From Fidelibacterota bacterium (GTDB lineage: Bacteria > Fidelibacterota > Marinisomatia > Marinisomatales > Marinisomataceae): a stretch of DNA of 37,078 nt. The DNA lies in assembly GCA_002701645.1 (NCBI GenBank), contig NZWP01000021.1:1-37078 (forward strand), given 5' to 3'. Shown piece by piece: positions 16,745 to 30,920 of this stretch. Each line of letters begins with the position of its first letter. Position 1 is the first letter of the stretch. The notes under the pieces are model-generated. The model had not been told where the DNA came from and searched no databases. It saw only the letters and a program-made list of their open reading frames with translations. A program made the translations under genes and the position numbers.

Positions 16745-17120
16745 TACTGCTTCTAATTTTCTCGCCTAAACCGTCTACCATTTCAATATTATATTTTTTC
16801 ATCACAACTGTCTCAGGAACTTCTTCAAGACTTCTATCACCGCCATTAGCAAAGATATCTGGCTGTATATATTCTAAACTTTTACAAACACTCTTATCTT
16901 TGTCAATACTCAAAAAAACTTCATCAACGCAGCGTAATGCACCAACAATTTCTAATCGATCCTGCTCTGGCATAAATGATTTACCTTTTTTCAATCCTGC
17001 TTGATAATCGCTATTCACAATCACAACTAATTTATCTCCTAAGCTTTTAGCCATTTTTAGATACTCTAAATGTCCTACATGGATTGGATCAAAATATCCG
17101 CTAACTGCTACAACTTTCAC
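16713..17120 (-). CDS. Cytidylyltransferase-like nucleotidyltransferase (RfaE2/TagD type)
   Basis: VVAVSGYFDPIHVGHLEYL (HxGH), RSSSAITGIK. GTG at 17120 forms a GTGA overlap with the upstream stop, so the ORF track start at 17180 is probably wrong. Confidence 0.85.
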   Translation of the reverse strand: MKVVAVSGYFDPIHVGHLEYLKMAKSLGDKLVVIVNSDYQAGLKKGKSFMPEQDRLEIVGALRCVDEVFLSIDKDKSVCKSLEYIQPDIFANGGDRSLEEVPETVVMKKYNIEMVDGLGEKIRSSSAITGIKCDV

Positions 17121-18214
17121 TGCGTAGTCTCCTTTTGATAGTTCCAAGAAGGTAATTCTAGCTCCCAATTTGCTCGACAAGATAGAGAGTCAGGATAAAC
17201 ATAAAATTCTTCTGATTGTTCTTTCTCTACAAAAGAGCCCGTATCTAATCTATTGCTATTATTTCTATCTTCATATATTAACAATTGATATTTACCTCCT
17301 ATCACATCATTAATAACATAGGAGCCATCTAGATTGACGGCCTCAACATAAGAATATAAACTATTTTGTAATAACATCTTGATAGGATGTAGAAATTTTC
17401 CTGTCACTGTTCCTGATATGTCAGCTGTTTTTACCATATCACTATTACTGTCTGGAGCTACATCCAAGCTATCTGTATCTAATTCCTCTGATTCAGAAGC
17501 TTTATGTATAAAGAAATCAATATTTTTTAGATTAGCCTTTTTAGTTGATAATAAACTTTCATGATAAAGTGCATACTGCCCTTTTGAATAATCAATATTT
17601 GATCCATACTGCTCTACCGCAAGAATAGAAAAATCATCTGCTGGTAAATAATTAAAAATATATTCAGAGTCGCTTGTTGTATTTGCAATGTAGTCTGGAT
17701 CTGTACTCCGCATATCGTCATGATTGAGCAATCCTCTCCACAATAAAAGAGTTGACTGATCACTATCACCATACACATTGCCTTCTATTGTGGAAGAAGT
17801 AAATATGGAATCCATAGAAAATGGAATGCTAATATCTTTCTCAATTGTTACTCCATGCTCATCAGAAAAACTGGTATCTAAAACAATCATATATGTAGTA
17901 TCATTCTGAAGGTTGTTTGGCAGCCATACATCAATTTTATCTCCTTTAAATTCATATTTGACCTTATCTGTATGCATTGGATAAACATTAATAGCACTTT
18001 TAATTGAACTTTCTTTTAAATATTCACTGAAACGAATAGTAATTTTTTGTTCAGGTTTAATATTGTTTAATACTGCTGGTTTGGTTCCTAAAAGTGTTGG
18101 AGGAATTTCATCTAAAGACCCTCCCTCTGGGCTTCTAACAGATGCACAATTATTTAATATAATGATTGCTATAATAAATAAAAATTTAGTCATTGAATGA
18201 TGTTTATTTTTCAT
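17117..18214 (-). CDS. Ig-like (Big_5-type) lipoprotein
   Basis: Signal peptide with lipobox IILNNC; ASVRSPEGGSLDEIPPTLLGTKPA...ITIRFSEYLKESSI typical of Big_5-type lipoproteins. Confidence 0.75.
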   Translation of the reverse strand: MKNKHHSMTKFLFIIAIIILNNCASVRSPEGGSLDEIPPTLLGTKPAVLNNIKPEQKITIRFSEYLKESSIKSAINVYPMHTDKVKYEFKGDKIDVWLPNNLQNDTTYMIVLDTSFSDEHGVTIEKDISIPFSMDSIFTSSTIEGNVYGDSDQSTLLLWRGLLNHDDMRSTDPDYIANTTSDSEYIFNYLPADDFSILAVEQYGSNIDYSKGQYALYHESLLSTKKANLKNIDFFIHKASESEELDTDSLDVAPDSNSDMVKTADISGTVTGKFLHPIKMLLQNSLYSYVEAVNLDGSYVINDVIGGKYQLLIYEDRNNSNRLDTGSFVEKEQSEEFYVYPDSLSCRANWELELPSWNYQKETTQ

Positions 18215-19325
18215 ATCTCTTTAAATAATCTTCAGACCATTTTACAAAACTATTATTGTTAATTTCAAATTTAATTTCAGTAATTAAGTCAAAGTAATAT
18301 GCAATATTCATTAATGTCGCAATACGGATACCAAACATTTCGTTTACTTTAAATAAATGTCTCAAATAAGATTTAGAATGTTCTTGAGCAAATACAATAC
18401 TACTTTTTTTATCAATAGGAGATGTGTCATCTTTATATTTACTATTTAAAATATTAATTGATCCTTCATGAGTAAAAATTTGTCCATTCCTGGCATTGCG
18501 AGTTGGTAATACACAATCGAACATATCTATCCCAGACAAAATTGATTTTACGATATCTACAGGCTTACCCACTCCCATCAAATAACGAGGCTGATCTTTT
18601 GGCATATGTGTTCCTAACATATTTACGATATCAAACATAGGATCTTTTTTTTCTCCTACAGATAGTCCGCCAATAGCTAAACCGCATGTAGAAAATGGAA
18701 GCATCTGATCTAAACATTTTACGCGCTCTTCTTTATCAATTCCTCCTTGAATAATTGGGAATAATGTTTGGCTATGGCCATATAAAGGCAATTGATCATT
18801 TAGATATTCATACGCTCTCTTTGTCCAATCTTCTGTTAATCTAGAAGCGCGTTTTAATTCTTTCTTTGAACAATCTGCGGCAGGGCAATAATCAAAAGCC
18901 ATAATGATGTCAGATCCTAACTTTCTTTGTACTTCCATCGAAGTTTCTGGTGTAAAAAAATGCATACTTCCATCTAGATGCGACTTAAAGTTTACTCCAT
19001 TATCTGTAATTTCATTCATATTACTCAATGAGAAAACTTGATATCCTCCACTGTCAGTTAGAATACTATTTGACCAGTTCATAAATTTATGTAGCCCTCC
19101 ATTCTTCTCTATAATATCTGTGCCAGGCCTTAAATAGAGATGGTAGGTATTAGACAGCATAATTTGAGTGTTAATATCATATAATTCATTTGGAGATATT
19201 GATTTAACTACCCCATGAGTACCAACTGGCATAAAGACAGGGGTCTCTATTGTAGAATGATTAGTTTCTATTTTACCTACCCTCGCTAATGAATGTTTAT
19301 CTTCAGATTGAATTGTAAACTTCAA
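18204..19325 (-). CDS. tgt: Queuine tRNA-ribosyltransferase
   Basis: TPVFMPVGTHGVVKSI, LTDSGGYQVFSLS, FPIIQGGIDKEER, GGLSVGEKK, YLMGVGKPVDIV. Confidence 0.96.
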   Translation of the reverse strand: MKFTIQSEDKHSLARVGKIETNHSTIETPVFMPVGTHGVVKSISPNELYDINTQIMLSNTYHLYLRPGTDIIEKNGGLHKFMNWSNSILTDSGGYQVFSLSNMNEITDNGVNFKSHLDGSMHFFTPETSMEVQRKLGSDIIMAFDYCPAADCSKKELKRASRLTEDWTKRAYEYLNDQLPLYGHSQTLFPIIQGGIDKEERVKCLDQMLPFSTCGLAIGGLSVGEKKDPMFDIVNMLGTHMPKDQPRYLMGVGKPVDIVKSILSGIDMFDCVLPTRNARNGQIFTHEGSINILNSKYKDDTSPIDKKSSIVFAQEHSKSYLRHLFKVNEMFGIRIATLMNIAYYFDLITEIKFEINNNSFVKWSEDYLKRYEK

Positions 19326-19329
19326 AAAA

Positions 19330-22300
19330 TTACCAATCGTACCCTATAGATAAAATATATTGGGGTTTTGAATAATCGCCATTTGGATAGCGATCCCATG
19401 CAGTATCAATCCTTATCAAAGCCCAAGGAGTAAACATCTTCATTCCAATACCAAATGTAGAAATAATGGGAGAAGCCTCTGGATCAGATAAGCCATATTT
19501 TGCTCTTACTAAAGCGCTATCATCAAATTCTTCACTTGAATCCCATGCAGCACCAACATCAACAAATATGTGCCCAAAAATATTTCCAAATCTAATTCTT
19601 GCAGGGAAGCTTACATCTACATAATTAATAAAAGGGAATCTAAACTCAAAATTTGCAACTGCGACATTTTCTCCAGTACGTTCTCTGTATCTTGCACCTC
19701 TTATCGGGAAAACATATTCACTAAAATACACATCCTGCAATATAGAAGAATTATCATATTCTAGAACTCTTTCCGCATAAAAACCTGAATCATCTCGCCC
19801 TTCTGTTTGAGTGTCTGATATAATGGTCATTTGAGAATTGCCGCCTAAAAAGAATCTTTGTGGATTATCTCCTATGCTCTTTCCTAACATTAATCGTGTT
19901 GCTATGCTATAGTTTCTATTAATTTTAAAATACTTTCTAATATCAAATTTGATAGTCTGAAAAGGAATAGAATCTTCTCCGAGATCAGGGCTAAATTGAA
20001 CAGTAAGATACTGCTTCAATCCGTCGTTTGGCCCTGTATATGTATTTGTAGTATTATCAAAAATCCAACTCACCATTGGCATCATTGCTGTGAGATTCTC
20101 TGTATATATAGAATCATAAGTCAGATTGTATATATCAAATTCTTTAACCTCATAATTGACTGATCTAAAAGTCCCTCCAAAATCAATACGACTAAACTTG
20201 GAAAAAGGATATTGTGCAAAAAATCCTATACCATAATCTCTCAATTTTCCTATATAGTCAGAAGTAAGACTGTAGCCTAATGAAAAGGTGTTGGCTTGCT
20301 GAAATAATGTACCATAATAGTTCATCCTATTTTTCAAATAAGCATAACTAATTATTACATCACTATTCTCTAAATCCAATACTAGGTTTGTGCCCATCAT
20401 AATTTGATGATCGCCCATAACATCGCTCCAAGCAAGATTTGCCAGTGCCCGAGTGCCAAAAAGATTATCAATAGAAGCTCTTGTGGCTATATAGTCTATA
20501 GAAAAATCTGTTTTATATGGCTTAGATGTATATCCATCAGCAAAACGCAATGAATCTATTTCTGTATCTTGATCATCAGTCTCTTTATCAGTATCATTAA
20601 ATCTTCTATAATTCCTAGCAAAGATATATTGTGAATAGTCTTGAGACTCTTCACTAGGGATTGCAGTTTTGACAAAACGTAAGTCTTCAAAAGTATCTAC
20701 TTGATTTCTTTCGCTATAAAATTTGGTCTCCGGGATTATCTTCTCTTCTCTGTTCTGAGGTTGATTCATTACAAATAAATCCCATCCTCTTTCAGAGTAG
20801 CCAGAAAAAATTAATTTATTCCCAATAGTATCAACATCTATTTGCTGAATGCCTGCTATGGCATTGGTAATAGGAGAAAAAATTTCACTACCTATTTTAT
20901 GTCTAAAAATATTATATACGCCATTATAATCTGCAGTATAAAACAATACATTATCTTTAGTTAATACCGGATAATTCTCATTGTAAGAGGTATCTGTAAT
21001 TTGTATAATTTTTTCATTGGAGAAATCATACATGAATAAATCTGTTTGAGAAAAATCTATATCAAACATGTTAGGAGAACCTTTGCTGGCTCCTCTATCG
21101 GAACTAAATATGATTTGATCTCCGCTTGATGACCATGCTGGAGAAAAGTCTGAAAAAGTATCATTTGTTAAATTTGTTAATTCTTGTGTATCTATATTTA
21201 TTACATATAAATCACTTGCATCATCTTTATGACCTATAAATACAATTTTATTGTAAGTAGGATGCCATGCAGTAGTAAAAACTCCATCTAATGGAATAGA
21301 TATTTTTTTATAGTCTCCATTTTTAACATCAACAATAATAATAGAGTCTTCTTTCCCACTCTTAGAAGCAAAGGCAATATGCTTTCCATCTGGAGACCAA
21401 GACAATCCTGGCTGCAACCATTTTAATTCTTCAAAATCTGGGCTAGTATTCCCTCGAATGAGTCGCTTTTTTTGCTTACCCGAATCAAGATTGTAGAGTA
21501 TTAAATCCATATACCCAGCCTGATCTGTAAAGTAAGCTACCGTATTGCCGTCGGGAGAAAATGAAGGGCTAACATTATAAAAGTTTTTCGTTTTTGATCT
21601 ATCAGTAATTTTTTCTGCAAAGTCAGTAATTTTTTCTCTCTCATTAATATCAGACCAATATTCTTTTTTTAAATAGTCATGCCAATCATCAGTTAGCTGT
21701 TCAAAATCTACGCCCAGTGCATTTTTAAATCCTTTTTCTGCATTTTGAGTTCGTTTCATTTGCTGAAATATTTCACCTACTTTTTCTCTGCCATATTTTT
21801 TGGTAATATATTGCCATACGGATTGTCCGCCTTTATACGCTAATATAGAATAGTTTAATTCTTCAATTTTTGGCAATCTTTCTTCAATAGCTAAATCACG
21901 TAAAACCATATCTGAATTAGTATCCCAATCAACCGATAAAAATTCTGCTAATCCTTCATTAGCCCATAGCGGTACTTGTAAAAGTATCCTTCCGCTGATT
22001 AACCCTTGAGCATTTCCTCCATAAACCATATCATTAATTGAAGCATGCACTAACTCATGATGAATCACATGCTTAAACTGCTCATAAGATCCTTCGAATG
22101 GAATGACAATTCGATTCTTATATAATTCAGTTACTCCACCAACACCCTCAGGCATATATGTATTTACAATATTGGTTTGTTGAAAGTCGTTATGCGATGT
22201 ATAAACAATAATCTTTACTGGCTTCTTGCTTCTCCATCTTAAATGTTTACCGATTTGATCTAATGACTCCTCTGCAACTTTAGAGGTAAAAATAGCCAAG

Positions 22301-22446
22301 TCATGATTGTCTCCATAATAGTAGACATTGAAATTAGGACTCACAATATATTCCCAATCAAAAGTGTCATATTGAACTTTATTTTGACCAAAATTTTGAC
22401 CAAAAACTACTTGACTACATAAAAGATATATTATGATGAATTTCAT
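19330..22446 (-). CDS. HExxH metallopeptidase-like + TolB/PD40 beta-propeller + Omp85/BamA-like C-terminal barrel protein
   Basis: HHELVHASIND then WANEGLAEFLS; repeated SFSPDGNTVAYFTDQAG / LSWSPDGKHIAFASKSG / PAWSSSGDQIIFSSDRG; C-terminal FFLGGNSQM, PIRGARYRERTGENVAVANFEFRFPF, terminal SIGYDW. Start set to MKFIIIYLLC signal peptide. Confidence 0.85.
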   Translation of the reverse strand: MKFIIIYLLCSQVVFGQNFGQNKVQYDTFDWEYIVSPNFNVYYYGDNHDLAIFTSKVAEESLDQIGKHLRWRSKKPVKIIVYTSHNDFQQTNIVNTYMPEGVGGVTELYKNRIVIPFEGSYEQFKHVIHHELVHASINDMVYGGNAQGLISGRILLQVPLWANEGLAEFLSVDWDTNSDMVLRDLAIEERLPKIEELNYSILAYKGGQSVWQYITKKYGREKVGEIFQQMKRTQNAEKGFKNALGVDFEQLTDDWHDYLKKEYWSDINEREKITDFAEKITDRSKTKNFYNVSPSFSPDGNTVAYFTDQAGYMDLILYNLDSGKQKKRLIRGNTSPDFEELKWLQPGLSWSPDGKHIAFASKSGKEDSIIIVDVKNGDYKKISIPLDGVFTTAWHPTYNKIVFIGHKDDASDLYVINIDTQELTNLTNDTFSDFSPAWSSSGDQIIFSSDRGASKGSPNMFDIDFSQTDLFMYDFSNEKIIQITDTSYNENYPVLTKDNVLFYTADYNGVYNIFRHKIGSEIFSPITNAIAGIQQIDVDTIGNKLIFSGYSERGWDLFVMNQPQNREEKIIPETKFYSERNQVDTFEDLRFVKTAIPSEESQDYSQYIFARNYRRFNDTDKETDDQDTEIDSLRFADGYTSKPYKTDFSIDYIATRASIDNLFGTRALANLAWSDVMGDHQIMMGTNLVLDLENSDVIISYAYLKNRMNYYGTLFQQANTFSLGYSLTSDYIGKLRDYGIGFFAQYPFSKFSRIDFGGTFRSVNYEVKEFDIYNLTYDSIYTENLTAMMPMVSWIFDNTTNTYTGPNDGLKQYLTVQFSPDLGEDSIPFQTIKFDIRKYFKINRNYSIATRLMLGKSIGDNPQRFFLGGNSQMTIISDTQTEGRDDSGFYAERVLEYDNSSILQDVYFSEYVFPIRGARYRERTGENVAVANFEFRFPFINYVDVSFPARIRFGNIFGHIFVDVGAAWDSSEEFDDSALVRAKYGLSDPEASPIISTFGIGMKMFTPWALIRIDTAWDRYPNGDYSKPQYILSIGYDW

Positions 22447-22496: not shown

Positions 22497-23237
22497 ATGC
22501 AGTTACCAATCTATTTCTTTGGAGATACCCATTTCAAGTTCTCAAAGTCAAATCAAGAAAATAAAAAGGTGGAAAAATTTTCACAATTTCTAGATTCTAT
22601 CTCTAAAGATAATACAAAAGGGTCTTTATTTATTATGGGAGATTTTTTTGATTATTATTTTGAATACAAGAATCAAGCCTCTAGCGATTATGAAAAAATA
22701 TTTACTAAAATTGAAGAAATTAAAAATAAAGGCTTTGAAATCTATTTTATAGCTGGTAATCATGATTATTGGATTGGAGATTATTTCAAAAAACATATCA
22801 CTGAAGCTTTCTTAGATGATACAATGGTATCAAACAATAGTAACAATTTATACATCACTCATGGAGATGGGATTTTATCTTGGGATCAATCATATCGACT
22901 CTTAAAAAAAGCACTTCGAAGTAATCTATTTATTAAAATCTATTCTCTCCTTCCAAAGAGTGTTGCACTAAAAATTGCAAATAAAATATCTTATGAAAGA
23001 AAGGATTCACACAATATAAATCAAAAAAAGCTTAATAAAATTCATGATGAACTAGATAGTTTTGCTCAACAAAAAATTAATCAAGGTTTTAAGTATGTGA
23101 TTATGGGTCATTATCATCATTCGTATCAAAAAAAGTTAAATAATGGAGAATTAATTCTTTTAGGTGAATGCAATGAAGAGAATTATAATTATGCTGTTTT
23201 TGATGGTGATAAATTGGAAATAAAGAATTTCTTTTAG
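22497..23237 (+). CDS. lpxH: UDP-2,3-diacylglucosamine hydrolase-like metallophosphoesterase
   Basis: FFGDTHFK, FIMGDFFDYYFEY, FIAGNHDYW, ITHGDGI, VIMGHYHHS. Confidence 0.75.
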   Translation: MQLPIYFFGDTHFKFSKSNQENKKVEKFSQFLDSISKDNTKGSLFIMGDFFDYYFEYKNQASSDYEKIFTKIEEIKNKGFEIYFIAGNHDYWIGDYFKKHITEAFLDDTMVSNNSNNLYITHGDGILSWDQSYRLLKKALRSNLFIKIYSLLPKSVALKIANKISYERKDSHNINQKKLNKIHDELDSFAQQKINQGFKYVIMGHYHHSYQKKLNNGELILLGECNEENYNYAVFDGDKLEIKNFF

Positions 23238-23830: not shown

Positions 23831-24754
23831 TTATAACTCCTTTTTACATAATGTAAGCATAATTGCATTTTGTGTATGCAATCTATTTTCTGCCTGTTCA
23901 AATACGATTGAATTGTCTGAATCAATTACATTGTCAGTAACTTCCCTGCCTCGCTCTGCTGGTAAACAATGCATAAACAAATAATCGTCTTTGGCATTCT
24001 TTACTAACTCTGAATTCACTTGGAATGGAGAAAAGATTTTGATGCGTTCATCAATTTCTTCTTTTTGACCCATGGATGCCCATACATCTGTATAAATCAC
24101 ATCTGCGTTGTGAACAGAATCAAGCGAGTGAGATACAGAGATATTAGAAATGCCAGCATCATTTGCAAATTTAATCGTATCTGCATCAGGAGAATATCCT
24201 TCAGGGCACACACAAATAAATTCAAAAGGAAGTACAGCCGCCAACCTGATCCAAGAATTAACAATATTATTTCCATCACCTAGATAGACTATCTTCAGAT
24301 TATCAAAAGAATCTTTCTTTTGTTCCCATACTGTAAACATGTCCGTTAAAATCTGGCAAGGATGATTATAATCGGTTAATCCATTAATAACAGGAACCGT
24401 AGCATGTTGTTCAAAATCTAACATATCACTATGGCTGAAAACTCTTGCCATAATCATATCATTATATCGACTAAATAATTGGGCTAAATCTGAAGCACTT
24501 TCTCTTTTTCCTAACCCAATATCTTGGGGAGCTAAATAAATTGCATGGCCGCCCATCCAAGAGAATCCTGTTTCAAAAGATACTCTTGTTCTAGCGGAAG
24601 GTTTTGCAAAAATCATTGCCATAGAATGATTTTTAAAAGGTTTAAAATTCTCTTTTGTTCTGTATTTATGCTTTAACTCAGCAGTCAAATGAAATAAATC
24701 AATTATTTCATTTTTTGAAAAATCATCAACTTTAATACAGTGTCTAAGACTCAT
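23831..24754 (-). CDS. argF: Ornithine carbamoyltransferase
   Basis: FAKPSARTRVSFETG, NHPCQILTDM, YLGDGNNIVNSW, MHCLPAERGREVTDNV. Confidence 0.93.
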   Translation of the reverse strand: MSLRHCIKVDDFSKNEIIDLFHLTAELKHKYRTKENFKPFKNHSMAMIFAKPSARTRVSFETGFSWMGGHAIYLAPQDIGLGKRESASDLAQLFSRYNDMIMARVFSHSDMLDFEQHATVPVINGLTDYNHPCQILTDMFTVWEQKKDSFDNLKIVYLGDGNNIVNSWIRLAAVLPFEFICVCPEGYSPDADTIKFANDAGISNISVSHSLDSVHNADVIYTDVWASMGQKEEIDERIKIFSPFQVNSELVKNAKDDYLFMHCLPAERGREVTDNVIDSDNSIVFEQAENRLHTQNAIMLTLCKKEL

Positions 24755-26046
24755 TTTAATTTCCTTTTTTTAGTATTTAGTATATTCATTGACTCTCTAT
24801 ATTTTGCTACAGTTCTTCTTGCAATTGAAAAGTCTTTGGCGTCTAATAATTGTACAATCTCTAAATCAGATAAAGGCTGATTTTTATCTTCTGATTCTAC
24901 AATATTTTTTATAGCAGTTTTTAATTCTTCTGCTCCCACTATTTTACCAGATTTTTTTATTATTTTGCTAGTAAAAAAACTTTTCAAACTTAATATCCCT
25001 AGTGGGCTATCAATATATTTATTTTTTACAGTTCTGCTGATACTTGATATGTCCATATCAATTTTTTTAGCAATATCTTCTAATTTCAAAGGATTTGGAT
25101 GCTGTTGTTTTTCAGACAAATAATCATGCTGTATGTGAATAATCTCATTTACCACTTTTCTTAAGGTATTTGATCGAAATAAGATTGTATCTAATAAATT
25201 CTGTGCGCTACTAATGTGGTCATCAATAAATTTTTTCTCTTCTTTGGGAGTTGCTGCATTCATTGCTGCATTTAAATACTCATTGGATATTTTAAATCTA
25301 TTGAGATGTCTATCATTAATTAGAATAATCCATTCTTCATCTTTCATTTTTAAAATAACATCTGGGTTGATTTGTTGATTTTCCACATTGAGATCTACTA
25401 TAGGTGCAAAATTTTTTGAAGAAATAATACTTAATGCATTATCAAAATCAGTATCTGAGCAAGATAAGGAAGATTTAATATCTAAAAATTTCTGATTAAG
25501 GAATTCGTCAAAATGATTGCTAATAATCTTCAATGCTATCTTTTCTTCTGGATTCATTTGCAATATGAGATATTCCTGTAAATTTTTACAACCTACTCCT
25601 TTCGGATTCAATGTTTTAACAAATTCTAAGATGCTTTCTACGTCCTCCATGCTAGAATCAGTACTATCTGCAATTAACTCTAATTCTGAATCTAAGAAAC
25701 CGCTATTGTCCACATTCAATATAATTTGTTGGGCTATTTCTTTTGATAGCTTATCAAGTTCAGACTGATCAATTTGGCTTATAAGATTATCAATGACATT
25801 CTTATCTTCTGGTAAATTAGATAAAAATAAATCATAATTTTGTTGATTATCAAGACCATAGCTTTCATAATCCTTATCTTTAAAATCTTCTATATTCTTT
25901 TCAATTAAAACGGGATTTTTTTGAATTTCATTCTCTAATTCTTTCTCGATATCATCCAGCCCAAGCTCTAAAAAACTAGATTGGAGTATTTGTTTTGGTA
26001 TTATAGACTGCTTTTGTCTAATCTTGGTAGAAAGCTTATTCATCAA
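24751..26046 (-). CDS. rpoN: RNA polymerase sigma-54 factor
   Basis: N-terminal region I-like sequence, HTH, RpoN box ARRTVAKYRE. Confidence 0.96.
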   Translation of the reverse strand: MMNKLSTKIRQKQSIIPKQILQSSFLELGLDDIEKELENEIQKNPVLIEKNIEDFKDKDYESYGLDNQQNYDLFLSNLPEDKNVIDNLISQIDQSELDKLSKEIAQQIILNVDNSGFLDSELELIADSTDSSMEDVESILEFVKTLNPKGVGCKNLQEYLILQMNPEEKIALKIISNHFDEFLNQKFLDIKSSLSCSDTDFDNALSIISSKNFAPIVDLNVENQQINPDVILKMKDEEWIILINDRHLNRFKISNEYLNAAMNAATPKEEKKFIDDHISSAQNLLDTILFRSNTLRKVVNEIIHIQHDYLSEKQQHPNPLKLEDIAKKIDMDISSISRTVKNKYIDSPLGILSLKSFFTSKIIKKSGKIVGAEELKTAIKNIVESEDKNQPLSDLEIVQLLDAKDFSIARRTVAKYRESMNILNTKKRKLK

Positions 26047-26771
26047 TCTAATCTAAATTTTTTTCCTAGATAAATTCTTCTGACTTCTTCGTCATTTGCA
26101 AGTGTTTCTGCATCTCCAGATTTTAAAATTTCTCCACTATGTAACAAATAGGATCTATCTGTAATAGATAAAGTTTCCCTGACATTATGATCAGTAATTA
26201 ATACACCTATATTTTTCTTTTTTAATGACATAATCATCTGCTGAATATCTTCTACTGCAATTGGATCTACCCCAGCAAATGGCTCATCTAAAAGTACAAA
26301 ATCAGGCTTTAAAGCTAAAGTACGACATATTTCAACGCGCCTTCTTTCTCCACCAGATAAACTTGAACCTAAACTTTTTCTTAGATGATTAATATTGAAT
26401 TGATCTAACAATTCATCAATTAAATTATTTTGCTCAATATCTTTTGGTAAAACTGTTTCTAGAACAATTTTAAGATTATTCTCTACCGTCAACTTTCCAA
26501 AAATAGATGGCTCTTGAGCTAAATATCCAATACCCATTCTTGCACGCTTATACATTGGAAGATTTGTGATGTTCACATTATCTAACAATATAGTACCAGA
26601 TGAAGGTCGAATCATCCCTGTAATCATATAGAAGGTGGTAGTTTTCCCGGCTCCATTAGGACCTAGCAAGCCAACGATTTCTCCTTTTTCTAAATGGATA
26701 TCAATATTGTTTACAACATCCTTTTGAGAATATTTTTTTTTCAAATTTTTTGCGCTTAATATTTTACTCAC
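26043..26771 (-). CDS. lptB: LPS export ABC transporter ATP-binding protein LptB
   Basis: GLLGPNGAGKTTTFYMITG, GIGYLAQEPSIF, SLSGGERRRVEICRTLA, LLDEPFAGVDPIAV, LITDHNVRET. Confidence 0.96.
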   Translation of the reverse strand: MSKILSAKNLKKKYSQKDVVNNIDIHLEKGEIVGLLGPNGAGKTTTFYMITGMIRPSSGTILLDNVNITNLPMYKRARMGIGYLAQEPSIFGKLTVENNLKIVLETVLPKDIEQNNLIDELLDQFNINHLRKSLGSSLSGGERRRVEICRTLALKPDFVLLDEPFAGVDPIAVEDIQQMIMSLKKKNIGVLITDHNVRETLSITDRSYLLHSGEILKSGDAETLANDEEVRRIYLGKKFRLD

Positions 26772-27276
26772 TGTTAATAGAGCCTCTTGGTTTTGTAATT
26801 TTCCAATTTGTTAAATCAATATTAGATTCAAATCCTGTACCGTATAGTGTATCAAAATTTCCAGAGATAAAAGTTAGACTTGCATCGGTAAAAATTTTAT
26901 CCGCTTTATTATCCCAAAGCAATGAATCTGTCCACAGCTGTTGCCCATTATCAGCTGCAACTACCACATCTCCGAATGCATTGATTTTATTCTCTTTTTC
27001 ACTTACAAACGCATAGTTGGAAGTAATAAGTGATGTATGCTGATAGCTATCATCATAAAGATCTACATTAACCTCATCCGTTAATCTTAATTCTAAATTC
27101 TCATTATTACGTTCTAAGAGTTTTGATTTAATAATGGCTTTAATATTGCCTTGTTCAGTTAATGTAATCTCTACATCAACAGAGAGTTGATCGTGTATAT
27201 CATCTAAAGATTCCTCAACCTGATAAGACCTAGAACAACTAATCAAAATAAAAAATAGTATTAAATAATAATTCAT
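26764..27276 (-). CDS. lptC: LPS export periplasmic protein LptC-like
   Basis: Lipobox ILISC; GDVVVAADNGQQLWTDSLLWDNKADKIFTDASLTF LptC-type strand pattern; next to lptB and kdsC. Confidence 0.8.
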   Translation of the reverse strand: MNYYLILFFILISCSRSYQVEESLDDIHDQLSVDVEITLTEQGNIKAIIKSKLLERNNENLELRLTDEVNVDLYDDSYQHTSLITSNYAFVSEKENKINAFGDVVVAADNGQQLWTDSLLWDNKADKIFTDASLTFISGNFDTLYGTGFESNIDLTNWKITKPRGSINSE

Positions 27277-27795
27277 CGCAACTCAGAAAGTAGCTGATCT
27301 AGCAATTGGTCAAAATCTCCTCTTGATGCAATAAGCAAGTCAATTACTTCTCTGACCGCTCCTTTGCCACCAGTTTTTTTGGTTATATAATGTGCGCAGC
27401 TTGCAACATATTCAGGGGCATTTGGAACAGAAACAGCAAAACCAACTTTTTCTAAGATAGGGATATCAATAATATCATCTCCCATAAAACAAATTTCATC
27501 ATCTTCTAGATTATGCTTTTTCTTTAATTCATTATACGAATCAATCTTCCTAATCACTCCATTATACACATCATCAATTTGTAATTCTTCTGCCCTAGAC
27601 TCTGTAGTAGCGGATTCTCTTCCAGTAATCCATGCTGTCTTAATACCAAGATCTAAAAGTCGTAGCATTACAAATCCAACTCCATCTAGAACATTGAAGC
27701 TTTTTGATTCTTCACCTGCAGTATCTTTAATAAATTGTCCATCCGTAAGAATACCGTCTACGTCACAAATAAATAGTTTAATATTTTTCAGATTT

Positions 27796-27803
<8 letters not shown>
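27273..27803 (-). CDS. kdsC: 3-deoxy-D-manno-octulosonate 8-phosphate phosphatase
   Basis: FICDVDGILTDG, AWITGRES, FMGDDIIDIPILEKVGFAVSVPNA. MDKNLK start overlaps kdsA stop by 8 nt. Confidence 0.92.

Positions 27804-30916
<3,113 letters not shown>

Positions 30917-30920
<4 letters not shown>

Follow-up and report, generated by a model that had tools for sequence, protein, structure and literature searches.

What can an outer-membrane protein do that joins a candidate zinc peptidase, a beta-propeller, and an Omp85-type barrel in a single chain? The question is raised by one gene in the window, by which we mean the whole stretch of 37,078 nucleotides analyzed here, from a 0.72-Mb, 81% complete genome of the phylum Neomarinimicrobiota (SAR406).

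Domain plan of the peptidase-propeller-Omp85 protein

The gene is a single open reading frame on the reverse strand (19330..22446; ATG at 22446, stop at 19330-19332), as are all parts of the protein located below. It encodes 1,038 aa, and by eye its N-terminal hydrophobic stretch is a probable Sec signal peptide (residues 1-17; 22396..22446) in which no lipobox was seen, in line with the exported polypeptide of ~1,040 aa described in an earlier note on this DNA. Pfam places Peptidase_MA_2 (PF13485) at residues 59-260 (21667..22272) with 55.1 bits against a cut-off of 32.4, within a conserved unit of approximately residues 18-285; a check of the N-terminal region for Peptidase_MA-like families, which the note had proposed, thus gave a match, and the same profile matched nothing in 14 control genomes. 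The segment HHELVH (residues 129-134) contains the HExxH motif with H130, E131, and H134 (residues 130-134; 22045..22059), and WANEG (residues 161-165), a W-x-x-E-G motif, contains E164 (21955..21957), the putative third zinc ligand. All four residues are invariant in 49 of 49 orthologs compared, and they remain so when paralogs are included. In a 34-sequence alignment that takes in paralogs at 19-22% identity and a Salinibacter homolog, only 11 columns of the peptidase domain are invariant and these residues account for four of them, and catalysis is therefore probably the selected function. The HExxH motif, the downstream glutamate, and the above-threshold PF13485 match place the protein by sequence among the gluzincins, as had been claimed from the motifs, and the residue pattern is that predicted for an active metallopeptidase. 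Y204 (21835..21837), invariant in orthologs, may be a catalytic tyrosine. A PDB search found no solved structure clearly related to the peptidase domain, and AlphaFold, given the window sequence and close relatives as input, returned a mean pLDDT of 35 for the full-length protein and 40 for the peptidase domain.

The peptidase is followed by a PD40/TolB-like beta-propeller (approximately residues 290-560; 20767..21579), for which Pfam lists several PD40 repeats (PF07676), as claimed. Its sequence is nearest to TolB, and in the PDB it matches TolB chains best. The TolB profile TIGR02800 matches partially, over the propeller only (108.7 bits against a cut-off of 343), and with the TolB N-terminal domain (TolB_N) not listed in a Pfam scan of the window protein, the protein is not itself a TolB.

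The C-terminal barrel (approximately residues 641-1038; 19333..20526) was recognized by three routes. PF01103 matches with 51.5-52.5 bits against a cut-off of 24 in searches restricted to the C-terminal part or run on the genome, and covers the C-terminal 300-400 residues; Omp85 was unlisted in an hmmscan of the full-length protein, presumably as a result of HMMER filtering. The barrel profile is collinear, end to end, with that of the BamA barrel encoded in this genome (hhalign E ~1e-5 for one comparison, with a probability of 63%). Among PDB sequences it matches BamA chains (E 3e-5) and a POTRA-domain-containing protein (5e-10). By sequence comparison the barrel is thus assigned to Omp85, and a non-Omp85 barrel, which the earlier note had named as what would speak against its reading, was considered and rejected. 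The PIRG motif (residues 914-917; 19696..19707) is the counterpart of the Omp85 VRGF motif, with P914, R916, and G917 invariant in 49 orthologs, and the protein ends in YDW; both elements are as first described.

Between propeller and barrel lies a linker of 80 residues (residues 561-640; 20527..20766), the most variable part of the protein by column entropy. The claimed absence of a POTRA domain was borne out at each level searched: none was found by a Pfam scan of the full-length window protein, among the 25 families shown (45 matched) for 27 orthologs, or, with an E threshold of 0.01, in 26 C-terminal regions, and hhalign gave no profile match between the linker and the genome's own BamA POTRAs. 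A POTRA concealed within the linker was considered and rejected. The window protein accordingly falls outside the POTRA-bearing Omp85 class (BamA, TamA, and PlpD), whose members have at least one POTRA.

Distribution and constraint across the Neomarinimicrobiota

The fusion was followed through the phylum, as had been suggested, and a strong orthologous match (E below 1e-100) was present in 145 of 149 genomes sampled across the Neomarinimicrobiota, most matches being full length and some truncated by contig ends; the genomes without one are G033, G115, G118, and G161. Within the window's genus the gene is present in 22 of 24 genomes, and both of those without it are incomplete assemblies (56% and 77%). 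The gene is a core gene of the phylum, and the occurrence of the same three-part protein throughout it is far beyond chance. A chimera arising in a metagenome-assembled genome is rejected because all orthologs carry the identical fusion. Its retention by nearly all sampled genomes of the phylum points to an important function, putatively in outer-membrane quality control. In one genome (G019; L019 / L036) a frame change near residue 972 splits the ortholog, which may be misassembled or a broken gene.

Sequence divergence is unevenly distributed along the protein. In order-level pairs the peptidase is 64-68% identical and the barrel of the same protein 44-48%, and the corresponding values for BamA of the same genomes are 57-60% for its barrel and 42-48% for its periplasmic part. 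In nine genome pairs, with identity taken to the window protein, the peptidase exceeded its own barrel and the BamA POTRA region, and also the BamA barrel, clearly so for the more divergent pairs. For a set of 22 sequences that includes the window protein, mean identity was 58% for the peptidase against 54% for Tgt. The peptidase is the slowest-evolving domain of the protein, slower than the BamA barrel or Tgt. Surface-exposed passengers usually evolve faster than their barrel, and from this reversal we infer that the enzyme domain faces the periplasm. Peptidase distances correlate with those of Tgt and LpxH (r 0.85-0.89 for 22 sequences, with Tgt at about 0.85), as expected for vertical descent, and the gene is apparently inherited vertically.

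Relatives with larger genomes encode further paralogs of the same overall plan, with a weak Omp85 or peptidase profile in some. At least two paralog groups of ~950 and ~985 aa (L084, L079, L080-L083) have the HExxH motif and propeller, with an Omp85-type barrel where detectable, and were not found in the streamlined genus. Outside the phylum, plasmids and viral contigs were searched. No relative was detected in viral contigs, and the only homolog from plasmids was a Salinibacter ruber "basic secretory protein-like protein" (WP_118831798.1), which shares the N-terminal motif, peptidase, and propeller (29% identity) but ends after the propeller without a barrel; the barrel is therefore a separable anchor. 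Two Gemmatirosa plasmid matches were set aside as long propeller proteins, tricorn-like by eye.

Gene neighborhood and envelope inventory

The divergent neighbor of the gene (22497..23237, forward strand) encodes an lpxH-like UDP-2,3-diacylglucosamine diphosphatase, which scores 107.7 bits with NCBIfam PRK05340, below the cut-off of 134. Such a gene adjoins in ~25 of 33 loci and 16 of 22 families, and is absent in the other 6 of 22, the loci being chosen rather than a census and the neighbors called by similarity to the window's genes. Downstream, radA and tgt are found in many families. In many of these (L049-L060) radA lies between the peptidase-Omp85 gene and tgt, and it is missing there in the window's genus (window 19325-19330); no RadA above cut-off was found in the window's 81%-complete genome. 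In at least one family a gene for an MlaE permease stands between the peptidase-Omp85 gene and radA (L068:11076-11909), and several further families have a gene of similar length in that position. A few kilobases upstream, the window's genus has kds, lptC, and lptB genes, which in the window form a compact kdsB-pyrG-kdsA-kdsC-lptC-lptB-rpoN run (24751-30920), with sigma-54 retained in this streamlined genome; kdsA and kdsC were named from DAHP-synthase and HAD family matches together with position. Linkage to Lpt genes was rejected as a general rule because lptB and lptC are close only in the window's genus; lptB is farther off in one locus outside it, and lpxH adjacency is general. An exported probable lipoprotein of ~380 aa with HEAT repeats follows lpxH in many families (L051:11938-13080, L059:6104-7219) and is a possible partner. 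A gene for a Big_5 (Ig-like) probable lipoprotein (window 17117-18214) is also found near the locus in distant classes of the phylum. The bearing of this neighborhood on function is suggestive.

The streamlined genus (0.7-1.0 Mb) encodes, as the only Omp85 proteins detected, BamA and the peptidase-Omp85 protein, which is also its sole Peptidase_MA_2 match. No M48 peptidase was found in the 16 genomes of the genus searched, and no convincing TamB in the genus, only weak matches in frames of 404-473 aa; larger relatives retain an Omp85 of ~620-650 aa beside TamB. DegP-type serine proteases are still present, and the peptidase-Omp85 protein is therefore not the sole envelope protease. PF04453 does not recognize LptD in most of these genomes, so that we draw no inference about its presence; one classical LptD match of 145 bits (L094; G009:C22:1360-2400) occurs in a single member of the genus and is perhaps contamination.

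Proposed function and comparison with known systems

Taking together the domains, motif invariance, retention, and neighborhood observed here, the reading that we tentatively prefer, at a little short of an even chance, is a self-anchored, periplasm-facing outer-membrane protease in the quality control of outer-membrane proteins or the LPS translocon, in which zinc binding, periplasmic orientation, protease activity, and client class are all predicted. The Omp85 barrel would be seated in the outer membrane, and the propeller and N-terminal zinc peptidase would hang into the periplasm. TolB and BamB propellers dock partners or substrates, and the propeller here could do likewise in place of POTRAs. 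At the outer membrane the peptidase would then cleave proteins that are stalled, misassembled, or still in their pro-form, the likeliest being beta-barrels or the LPS translocon during assembly. A single chain would in this way combine the work that in E. coli falls to BepA, a soluble M48 peptidase that works on BAM. Against this reading stand the barrel-less Salinibacter homolog, which shows that the enzyme can do without a membrane anchor, the DegP-type proteases still present, and the 6 of 22 families in which lpxH linkage is absent. A bolder version, which we consider rather unlikely, is a phylum-wide, possibly essential Omp85 whose own zinc peptidase would degrade or mature the outer-membrane clients that the protein handles, and which in the streamlined marine bacteria would do the jobs that elsewhere belong to TamA/TamB and BepA.

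An unlikely alternative is a barrel that transports or inserts one dedicated cargo, with the peptidase trimming this cargo on the periplasmic side to release a pro-peptide or passenger. Omp85 family members are insertases or translocases (PMC4104836), and both the active site and the RG motif of the barrel are invariant here; however, the neighbors conserved across the phylum are lpxH, radA, and tgt rather than anything cargo-like, and the protein has no POTRA to receive cargo. Quite improbably, by analogy with a lipid role of PlpD, the barrel might thin the membrane while the peptidase regulates a lipid-transport partner in outer-membrane lipid or LPS homeostasis. The divergent lpxH in most families, the adjacent MlaE permease gene in some, and the nearby lptB/lptC/kds cluster in the window's genus all fit this, but only single genes, and no complete lipid pathway, show fixed linkage, lipids are not peptidase substrates, and the explanation overlaps with that of a self-anchored protease.

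Envelope quality control and surface presentation were the two functions offered in the earlier note, and the first fits better. A surface-displayed, type Vd-like peptidase for nutrient scavenging or surface remodeling is distinctly unlikely: the order of passenger and Omp85 resembles the original PlpD model and larger genomes encode several paralogs of the same layout, but the PlpD patatin domain was shown in 2024 to be exclusively periplasmic, with passage of a folded domain through the PlpD barrel improbable (PMC11116518). The reading is further weakened because the enzyme here is the most conserved and slowest-evolving part of the protein, and because streamlined genomes keep the gene next to lipid A genes. 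That the peptidase fold is only a structural or pseudo-enzymatic binding module is highly improbable, as the motif residues stay unchanged even between sequences whose domain is otherwise ~20% identical.

Omp85 subfamilies that bear an enzyme are largely uncharacterized, and for one of them the secretion model was overturned by PlpD. The present family joins to a POTRA-less Omp85 a peptidase that is apparently intact. It belongs to the core genes of an entire ocean phylum and persists, along with BamA, where the genome shrinks below 1 Mb. It offers a testable case of outer-membrane proteolysis built into an Omp85 scaffold, and an easy-to-score marker for the outer-membrane biology of uncultured SAR406 bacteria.

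TolB and BamB share with the window protein a periplasmic propeller at the outer membrane but are separate proteins without enzyme or barrel. E. coli BepA shares the HExxH-plus-Glu zinc-peptidase design and a proposed role in quality control of outer-membrane proteins and the LPS translocon, and acts on LptD at BAM; it differs in belonging to another peptidase family (M48), in being soluble, and in having TPRs in place of the propeller and no barrel (PMC8423444), and neither M48 nor TPR was listed by Pfam for the window protein. PlpD and the patatin-Omp85 proteins are likewise single chains in which an enzyme domain precedes an Omp85 barrel, but there it is a patatin lipase with one POTRA (PMC11116518), and lacking the patatin domain and any detectable POTRA, the window protein, with its metallopeptidase and propeller, departs from the plan of a PlpD-like type Vd autotransporter. 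The "Metallo" class (Omp85-metalloproteases) is defined by PF00149, a calcineurin-like phosphoesterase family (PMC4104836), and identity with it is therefore rejected.

Similar in plan is WD40-Omp85, one of ten subfamilies and likened to a BamA-BamB fusion, which has a TolB-like beta-propeller N-terminal to the Omp85 barrel and no POTRA (Heinz & Lithgow 2014, PMC4104836). The window protein has the same propeller directly before its barrel, and by architecture it belongs near this subfamily. Whether the architecture was already characterized, a possibility raised from the start, has a divided answer: the subfamily was named in 2014, but it is listed as not well characterized (PMC11116518), and the 2014 main text mentions no metallopeptidase with it and does not name the Neomarinimicrobiota (PMC4104836). 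In the open-access subset of the literature searched, neither Peptidase MA nor PD40 was linked to Omp85 in any paper found. The WD40-Omp85 plan was already known, and what is apparently new is the addition of an apparently intact peptidase to a POTRA-less Omp85.
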